Assembly (NCBI RefSeq): GCF_017432245.1
Contig: NZ_JAFRJO010000058.1
Coordinates: 1 to 41,414, forward strand
DNA from: Methanobrevibacter sp.
GTDB taxonomy: Archaea > Methanobacteriota > Methanobacteria > Methanobacteriales > Methanobacteriaceae
Direction: 5' to 3'
DNA length: 41,414 bases
Part shown: in pieces, positions 170 to 29,864 of the stretch
Layout: the number at the start of each line of letters is the position of its first letter
How positions within the stretch are numbered: the first letter of the stretch is position 1
The notes under the pieces: generated by a model
The model's input: only the letters and a program-made list of their open reading frames with translations
Database searches by the model: none
Told to the model about the DNA's origin: nothing
Position numbers and translations under genes: made by a program

Positions 170-1000
170 TTATTCCAATAACTCCAGGAACTTTCTACGT
201 GCCTGACCAATAGTTAAAGGATAATTTCCTTCAAAGTCAATGTTGTCTTCCTTTTCCAAGATTTCAGCAAGATGCGCCATTCTTGGTAGACGCAAATCAG
301 CTTCCCTGATTGTGTCCACATCAGAAAATACCTCATTAGGTTTTCCTTCAGCAATGATTTCCCCATCACTTATCAAATGAATCTCACTTGAATAAACAGG
401 AACCAAATCCACATCGTGAGTGGAGATAACAATAGTCATTCCTTCCTTATTCAATTCATACAATAATTTAAGAATATGAGAAGCTCCTTTCGGATCCAAA
501 CCGGAAGTAGGTTCATCAAGAATCATAAGTTCAGGCTTCATGGCTAAAATACCTGCAATAGCTACTCTCTTCTTTTGTCCACCACTTAAATGGTGAGGGG
601 ATTTCTTTTCAAAGCCTGCCATTCCTACCTTTTCAAGAGAATCCTTAACCCTTTGTTCAACCTCTTCAATTGGAAGTCCTAAATTCATTGGTCCAAAGGC
701 AACATCCTCTTCTACAGTTGGAGCAAAGAGTTGATTATCGGGGTTTTGAAATACAATTCCTATCTTTTGACGAGCTTTAAAAAGGCTTTCCTTATCATAT
801 TCCAACTTCTCTCCATCAATAAAAACTTCGCCGGATTTTGGAATATTAATACCATTGAAATGTAAAAATAGAGTTGATTTTCCAGCGCCATTCCTTCCTA
901 AAAGAGCAACCATTTCTCCTTTATCTACTTTAAAATTAATATTGTTCAATGCCCTTGTCCCATCAGGATATTCAAAAACTATATTTCTTGCCTCTAAAAT
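170..1000 (-). CDS. cbiO: Cobalt/nickel ECF-type transporter ATP-binding protein CbiO (EcfA-like)
   Basis: Cytoplasmic ATPase of an energy-coupling-factor transporter, most likely for cobalt (or nickel). It has Walker A GRNGAGKST, signature LSGGQKKR and Walker B LMILDEPTSGLD, then the D-loop and switch His (STHD). The reading frame runs well upstream of the first ATG/GTG/TTG (a TTG at 949). The residues ILEARNIVFEYPDGTRAL before it match the normal CbiO N-terminus. The open frame reaches an ATT codon at 1000-998, preceded at the ideal distance by GGAGG (1008-1012), so I place the start at this ATT, giving 276 residues, normal for the family. No cbiM/N/Q genes are adjacent in the window. A TATA box at 1041-1048 suggests its own transcript. 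The cbiZ gene lies just upstream, consistent with cobalamin metabolism. Function is confident; the start codon is inferred. Confidence 0.9.
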   Translation of the reverse strand: MLEARNIVFEYPDGTRALNNINFKVDKGEMVALLGRNGAGKSTLFLHFNGINIPKSGEVFIDGEKLEYDKESLFKARQKIGIVFQNPDNQLFAPTVEEDVAFGPMNLGLPIEEVEQRVKDSLEKVGMAGFEKKSPHHLSGGQKKRVAIAGILAMKPELMILDEPTSGLDPKGASHILKLLYELNKEGMTIVISTHDVDLVPVYSSEIHLISDGEIIAEGKPNEVFSDVDTIREADLRLPRMAHLAEILEKEDNIDFEGNYPLTIGQARRKFLELLE

Positions 1001-28602: not shown

Positions 28603-28950
28603 TTATCCTTGAATTCCACCCATAGCTTGTTGGATGGTTGCTTGCATTTCTTCAAGTTTTTTCATGACTCTTTCTTCTTGACGGGTCATGGTTTGTTGTC
28701 TTAATTTAAGAGTTTCAACTTTGTCTTCAAGCTCTTCTAATGTTTCATTACGTTCAACTTTAATGAGTAAGTTTCCTGCAGATTTGAATACTTCAGCTCC
28801 TTCTGGAGTCTTTTTAAGTTCTGCAAGAGCGGTTTCAGTTTCTCTTAATTGAATGTCAACGTTTTGTTTTTGAATGGTTACAGCTTGAGCTTGTTGTTGT
28901 AATTGTTGGAATTGGTTTAATTGATGTTGTATATTTTGTGGAATTTCCAT
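28603..28950 (-). CDS. pfdB: Prefoldin subunit beta
   Basis: Jellyfish-shaped hexameric chaperone subunit that delivers unfolded proteins to the thermosome. 115 residues: an N-terminal coiled coil rich in Gln (QLNQFQQLQQQAQAV), the central beta hairpin (VFKSAGNLLIKVERNETLEEL) and a C-terminal coiled coil (LKLRQQTMTRQEERVMKKLEEMQ). The length is normal. ATG 28950 has an AAGGTGA site. It is preceded by Pcc1 and followed by DUF3194 on the same strand, the conserved archaeal order. Confidence 0.96.
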   Translation of the reverse strand: MEIPQNIQHQLNQFQQLQQQAQAVTIQKQNVDIQLRETETALAELKKTPEGAEVFKSAGNLLIKVERNETLEELEDKVETLKLRQQTMTRQEERVMKKLEEMQATIQQAMGGIQG

Positions 28951-29077: not shown

Positions 29078-29347
29078 TTAAGTTTCAGTCAATTCATTTA
29101 TCTCAACAGATAATTTAATCCATTTGATAGCTGAATTGATGGATGCTCTAAATGATGTTGCATCTTCTGCATCTATTGTGATTATGATAGAATTCTTATC
29201 CAATTTCAAATCCATGGAAGATCTGTAATCAGGAGAAGTCTCAAATTCAAGCAATATTGAATCGTAAACTATTTTAGCTTGCTTTTCTGTGTCAAAATCA
29301 ATGACAATGTCACTATTGATTGACTTTAATATATCACTTTCACTAAT
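29078..29347 (-). CDS. pcc1: KEOPS complex subunit Pcc1 (apparent ATT start)
   Basis: A small dimerisation subunit of the KEOPS complex that makes threonylcarbamoyl-adenosine at position 37 of tRNAs. The frame to TAA 29078 reads SESDILKSINSDIVIDF near the start, then SPDYRSSMDLKLDKNSIII and ITIDAEDATSFRASINSAIKW, the typical Pcc1 beta-beta-alpha-beta pattern. No ATG, GTG or TTG occurs early in frame; the first would cut away most of the domain. A strong site GGAGAG (29354-29359) lies six bases before an ATT codon at 29347-29345, giving 89 residues, normal for Pcc1. It lies 25 bases after the Brix gene and before prefoldin beta, as in other euryarchaea. The gene identity is secure; the start codon is inferred. 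Confidence 0.85.
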   Translation of the reverse strand: MSESDILKSINSDIVIDFDTEKQAKIVYDSILLEFETSPDYRSSMDLKLDKNSIIITIDAEDATSFRASINSAIKWIKLSVEINELTET

Positions 29348-29372
29348 ATGAATCTCTCCTAAAAATTTCTAT

Positions 29373-29864
29373 CTAATTTTCAACTATCTTTTTAACGTTT
29401 ATTTGGAAATCTATTTGTTCTCCTTTCTTATTTACAAAATAGAGAATTGCAAAGTTCTTGTCATCATCATAATCAGCATAGGATATCCTAATGTAATTTG
29501 AGTCTTGAGGCTCGGTAGTAACTTCAATCCCTAAGACTTCAGCCAAAACATCCAGTTCCCTTACAGTGGATCTGATTTTCAAATCCTTAGGACTGATGTG
29601 AAGACGCTCATTTGTAGTGTTTACAGAAACAAGCAAAGCCAATTTCTCATTTGCCTCAAGGTCATAAAAAGTCAATTTGCTTGGATTTCCCTTAATCTGA
29701 TACACTAAAACAAGACTGTCATGACCTAATTGCTTTGCTTTAATAAGCAAATCCCTTAAGCTGCTTTTTCCCCTATTGGTATAGTCAAAACCAAAGGCAT
29801 GGGAAAAATTCTTGCAGAAAGTTCTTGTTTTCTGAGATGGTTTTCTTGATGTAGAAATAAGCAT
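29373..29864 (-). CDS. Archaeal Brix-domain (Imp4-like) ribosome biogenesis protein
   Basis: 163 residues: a single Brix domain starting LISTSRKPSQKTRTFCKNFSHAF, with the RGKSSLRDLLIKAK segment and the LSPKDL-like turn ISPKDLKIR. Archaeal Brix proteins are related to eukaryotic Imp4/Rpf1 and are thought to assist rRNA folding. ATG 29864 has an AGAGGAT site. The place between rpoP and pcc1 is the conserved order. A 225-base spacer to rpoP (29865-30089) holds one hydrophobic short frame without a clear start site. Confidence 0.9.
   Translation of the reverse strand: MLISTSRKPSQKTRTFCKNFSHAFGFDYTNRGKSSLRDLLIKAKQLGHDSLVLVYQIKGNPSKLTFYDLEANEKLALLVSVNTTNERLHISPKDLKIRSTVRELDVLAEVLGIEVTTEPQDSNYIRISYADYDDDKNFAILYFVNKKGEQIDFQINVKKIVEN

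Follow-up and report, generated by a model that had tools for sequence, protein, structure and literature searches.

A stretch of 41,414 nucleotides from the gut methanogen Methanobrevibacter sp., here called the window, contains a reading frame for Pcc1, a subunit of the tRNA-modifying KEOPS complex, with none of the usual start codons where its translation would be expected to begin, which raises the question of whether an intact pcc1 gene can start at AUU.

Identity of the gene and its putative start site

The original prediction placed a full-length Pcc1 frame between genes of the Brix and prefoldin families, with no ATG, GTG or TTG near its N-terminus and with GGAGAG six bases ahead of an ATT. 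All of this agreed with the features of the locus, which are as follows.

29373-29864, minus strand: upstream neighbour, a PRK00933-type rRNA maturation (Brix-like) gene with an ATG start
29356-29360, minus strand: Shine-Dalgarno AGGAG, at a spacing of 7 to the ATT
29345-29347, minus strand: putative start codon ATT (AUU), which is ATT or ATC in 15/15 genomes of the genus and at which constraint begins
29252-29254, minus strand: first in-frame canonical start, TTG, at codon 32 counted from the ATT and inside the Pcc1 domain; the truncated product would have 58 aa
29078-29347, minus strand: pcc1, KEOPS subunit Pcc1, 89 aa when read from the ATT
28603-28950, minus strand: downstream neighbour, the prefoldin beta subunit (PF01920, 77.9 bits; TIGR02338, 128.1 bits, above its cut-off)

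The frame is open from stop to stop between 29368 and 29081 on the minus strand, with its stop codon at 29078-29080, and it passed the Pfam Pcc1 family PF09341 with 72.4 bits (cut-off 20.9) and NF011470 of NCBIfam with 65.6 bits (cut-off 27), while the score of 68.4 bits for NF040853, also named KEOPS Pcc1, was below its cut-off of 140. Solved Pcc1 chains in the PDB matched the window protein with E values from 3.4e-29 to 6.6e-12, and their N-termini fall a few residues from the ATT. Since chain 8unk_P (82 residues) aligns over its residues 4-81 with positions 8-85 of the product read from the ATT, the ATT lies at the position expected for the N-terminus. The Brix-like neighbour scored below the curated NCBIfam cut-offs and had no Pfam match. 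The KEOPS partners Kae1 (PF00814) and Cgi121 (PF08617) were found in all 18 genomes searched, including G000, and the window gene is predicted to encode a member of the KEOPS complex that supports t6A synthesis. G000 also contains another Pcc1-like gene, starting with ATG (C44:5870-6570), whose match is weaker (22.8 bits) and which also passes NF011470 at 46.1 bits. It may be Pcc2, described as a widely conserved paralogue in PMC9889334, and the stronger of the two matches was taken as Pcc1 on match strength.

In the minus-strand direction, GGAGAG (29359-29354) is followed by ATTCAT (29353-29348) and by the ATT at 29347-29345, and the window frame holds no ATG, GTG or TTG ahead of codon 32. 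The gene had been predicted to span 29078 to 29359; its first coordinate was correct, while the coding sequence would end at 29347, position 29359 being the first G of the Shine-Dalgarno. An earlier ATT at 29351-29353 was rejected as the start, being too close to the Shine-Dalgarno and absent from genus g8.

To place the Shine-Dalgarno on a common scale, spacing was counted from the end of the aligned AGGAGG to the start codon and calibrated on 250 starts from 125 orthologous pairs of genomes G003 and G016. Among the 190 starts with a match, a spacing of 7 was the mode (83/190), followed by 8 (31) and 6 (17). The 23 near-cognate pcc1 starts described below gave, for the best ungapped duplex with at least four pairs, a spacing of 7 in 17 cases, of 5 in five cases and of 8 in a single case; with a minimum of five pairs, these numbers became 13, 5 and 1, with no duplex in the remaining four. 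The pcc1 gene of G008 has a weak Shine-Dalgarno (-2.6 kcal/mol). A comparison of Shine-Dalgarno strength between the near-cognate pcc1 genes and the ATG-start pcc1 genes of genus g9 found no difference (P 0.19), and since the duplexes were not stronger than those of g9, there was no sign of compensation by the Shine-Dalgarno.

Conservation of the start and onset of coding constraint

A match to Pcc1 was obtained in 15 of the 19 genomes of the genus (the remaining four are 62 to 73% complete); 14 of the 15 carry ATT at the start site, and G009 carries ATC. No ATG, GTG or TTG occupies this site in any of the 15, which come from clearly diverged species, and the same 15/15 rules out a sequencing error as the source of the ATT, a possibility that the original prediction had named and that many independent genomes exclude. 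A TTG occurs at codon 7 in three of the 15, with TTA or CTA in the others. The other finding that would have spoken against the prediction, orthologues with ATG at the site, was thus not encountered within the genus, but it is the rule in the related genus g9, where ATG occupies the same alignment column as the window ATT in 60/60 sequences.

At the level of the family, 126 of 138 genomes gave a match and 123 were aligned; G131 (missed by the motif), G067 and G094 (weak Pcc1-like matches only) and a partial second copy in G119 were left out. An ATT or ATC start was read in 23 of the 123, comprising 15 from the window genus, two from g7, five from g8 and one from g11, and the remaining 100 have ATG, GTG or TTG near the start place, as do three genomes from other families of the order. 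Upstream of the near-cognate start, 16 of the 23 have no canonical in-frame codon within the stretch examined. An ATG, GTG or TTG is present there in the other seven (G001, G007, G016, G029, G030, G031 and G034), none of them common to the set, and that of G029, a GTG, overlaps the Shine-Dalgarno and is ambiguous. The g11 sequence (G105) has a TAG stop immediately 5' of its ATT, and G005 and G014 have in-frame stops four to five codons 5' of theirs.

We placed these start states on a tree of seven proteins, Pcc1 excluded, from 21 genomes. The window genus formed one group with a support of 100 and lay, together with g3, g6 and g9, on one side of a fully supported split, the opposite side holding g7, g8, g11, g5, g10, g13 and the outgroups; the placement of g11 was weak (33). 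Read by eye on this tree, the start states imply that AUU either arose more than once, or is old and was lost more than once.

Invariance of the ATT is by itself weak evidence, because another Ile column of Pcc1 is equally invariant (ATT in 13/13), and of the 204 codons counted over the listed Ile columns, 80 are ATT. Where coding constraint sets in was examined in 11 of the 15 genus members, those with the ATT in register (the four with the start one codon off were omitted). Ahead of the ATT, from codon -16 to -5, all 36 of the 36 sites were variable. From codon +1 to +31, first, second and third positions were variable at 9, 4 and 25 of 31 each, and dN/dS had a median of 0.041 over the 37 pairs, out of 55, for which dS could be computed. 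These alignments indicate that coding constraint starts at the ATT and spans the part of the protein that a TTG start would lose. Retention of ATT or ATC in 15/15 genomes of the genus, together with constraint from the ATT onward, excludes chance as the source of this arrangement.

Two other accounts of where translation begins were weighed against these results. Initiation could take place upstream or in another frame, with the Pcc1 frame reached by frameshift or read-through, and most genus sequences do carry an out-of-frame GTG within ATTAGTGAA. This GTG is missing, however, in G014, G008 and G009, its frame in the window closes after five codons, in-frame stops stand 5' of the ATT (directly so in G105) and the upstream codons are unconstrained, which leaves such a route very improbable. 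The internal TTG at codon 32, before which the window frame has no canonical codon, could yield a short product, or the gene could be decaying, but truncation there would cost about one-third of the solved Pcc1 domain, and purifying selection acts on codons +1 to +31; we give this reading hardly any credence. AUU, by comparison, is very probably the start of pcc1.

Other genes with near-cognate starts

As a feature of pcc1 the ATT is real, but it is not unique to this gene, as a CbiO-like ATPase and pyrG have similar starts. We scanned two 400-kb stretches of G003 and G016, taken around pcc1 or up to the contig end, which gave 140 non-shadow orthologous pairs. The first-pass local alignment trims N-termini and missed both pcc1 and pyrG, and a second test was added. 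Clear near-cognate starts were found in three of the 140 pairs, namely pcc1, a CbiO/EcfA-type ATPase (ATT) and pyrG (CTG), a rate that is biased because the stretch was selected around pcc1. A small membrane protein (pair A1229/B1567 of G003/G016) also has a conserved N-terminus with no canonical start close to it; it is possibly a fourth case, with an ATT start, and has a weak Shine-Dalgarno and no family above cut-off.

The ATPase gene lies in the window.

170-1000, minus strand: CbiO/EcfA-type ATPase, 276 aa, with a putative ATT start at 998-1000 (TIGR01166, 281.5 bits; cut-off 211.8)

A check of 41 conserved frames in the window singled out three as having no canonical start close by: this ATPase, pcc1 and a frame that runs antisense to the gene of a ribosomal protein. 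The start column of the ATPase was readable in 20 of the 27 cbiO rows, seven not being read by the motif, and in these 20 it holds ATT in 9/9 sequences of the genus and in 2/2 of g6, with ATA in g3. In the remaining eight rows an ATG or GTG lies two or three codons further upstream. For pyrG, which encodes CTP synthase and lies outside the window, 21 of 26 genomes show CTG in the start column. Thirteen of the 21 lack a canonical codon over the six codons before it, and the CTG of G020 comes immediately after a TAA; the other eight are ambiguous, with an in-frame ATG, GTG or TTG nearby.

The comparisons indicate that pcc1 belongs to a broader pattern, in which near-cognate starts stand behind a well-placed Shine-Dalgarno. 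What had looked like a single oddity becomes a small class once the four genera that share the AUU or AUC start, the ATT directly behind a stop codon and the genes with similar starts are taken together.

Proposed initiation at AUU and comparison with known systems

Gene identity, the missing canonical start, placement and conservation of the ATT, purifying selection and the sister genes are read directly from the sequences. The reading that explains them best as a whole, and which we consider quite probable, is an intact and expressed pcc1 that would be translated from AUU. Start selection in archaea involves Shine-Dalgarno pairing and the factors aIF1, aIF1A and aIF2 (PMC6412873), and aIF1 favours discrimination against non-canonical starts (PMC8211752). 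At pcc1, the Shine-Dalgarno would position the 30S subunit with AUU in the P site, where the initiator Met-tRNA (anticodon CAU) could pair with it through a third-base mismatch; with AUU read by this tRNA, the N-terminus of the protein would be Met. The near-cognate codon would most likely make initiation weak and keep Pcc1 scarce relative to its partners. Initiation at AUU with Met as the first residue, the low efficiency of the process and its benefit are what we infer from the comparisons.

Why AUU has been kept is a separate matter. A dampened dosage of Pcc1, as opposed to near-neutral drift, is a tentative answer that we place slightly short of an even chance. Under drift, a strong and well-spaced Shine-Dalgarno would make AUU, AUC, AUA and CUG tolerable, and pcc1 would have left AUG with little effect. 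The near-cognate starts in at least three of the 140 orthologous pairs and the several start-state changes inside the family fit such a process, but the retention of AUU or AUC in 15/15 diverged genomes of the genus, with zero ATG, GTG or TTG, speaks against it, and we regard it as possible though doubtful. The third proposal is a feedback homeostat comparable to infC with its AUU start. KEOPS makes t6A37, and provided that the archaeal initiator tRNA carries this modification, a low level of it would loosen start choice and raise initiation at AUU, and the additional Pcc1 would restore t6A; if true, the AUU of pcc1 would be the sensor of a self-correcting loop joining tRNA modification and start-codon fidelity. 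In yeast without t6A, the number of non-AUG starts observed nearly doubles, and restriction to AUG has been credited to t6A37 of the initiator (PMC4717488). An initiator-type anticodon stem-loop with U36-A37 was found as an exact match in seven of the nine genomes searched, with no exact match in the other two, G000 and G025. The proposal is nevertheless weakened, because near-cognate starts occur in pyrG and cbiO, which have no t6A link, and because the start of Kae1 is canonical in 18/18 genomes (TTG in 13, GTG in one and ATG in four), as read in a Kae1/Cgi121 comparison in which five of the 18 Cgi121 frames were not located; pcc1 of g9, in addition, retains ATG. We consider the homeostat improbable.

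Starts other than ATG, GTG and TTG are handled as near absent in archaea, and an AUU start in a KEOPS gene would be common to several genera, with comparable cases in CTP synthase and a cobalt-type transporter. Gene finders that admit only these three start codons would truncate or omit such genes, and pcc1 would be a natural target on which to test how strictly archaea choose their start codons and whether this is linked to t6A. In a review, the start codons named are AUG, GUG and UUG, and its available text has no mention of AUU, CUG or non-AUG (PMC7531240). AUU or CUG starts in pcc1, pyrG or cbiO of archaea were the subject of no paper listed by text searches, whose coverage leaves out most subscription journals.

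Compared with archaeal KEOPS Pcc1 as defined by PF09341 and NF011470, the window gene agrees in sequence, length, family scores and solved structures, and it differs in its putative start, AUU, where the others have AUG, GUG or UUG. According to PMC9889334, pcc2 genes were absent from protein databases and were recovered by tblastn, annotation tools having missed them, and the same was expected of pcc1. The available text of that report gives no start-codon reason for these unannotated archaeal genes, whereas such a reason is visible here. Ribo-seq of Methanosarcina mazei revealed CTG starts in 5% of unannotated small ORFs (PMC11456600). M. mazei is a methanogen with some non-canonical starts, as would be the case here, but there they belong to small unannotated ORFs, while here they would belong to a conserved core subunit, a CTP synthase and a transporter ATPase.

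AUU starts are known from bacteria, and infC of E. coli, which encodes IF3, has an AUU start and is subject to autocontrol. This autocontrol is the topic of titles in the reference list of PMC9845219. Like pcc1, infC combines a conserved AUU with a gene that affects translation; pcc1 differs in being archaeal and in having a product that acts on tRNA modification, and autocontrol, a feature of infC, would be hypothetical for pcc1, the other genes with AUU or CUG starts speaking against a control specific to it.
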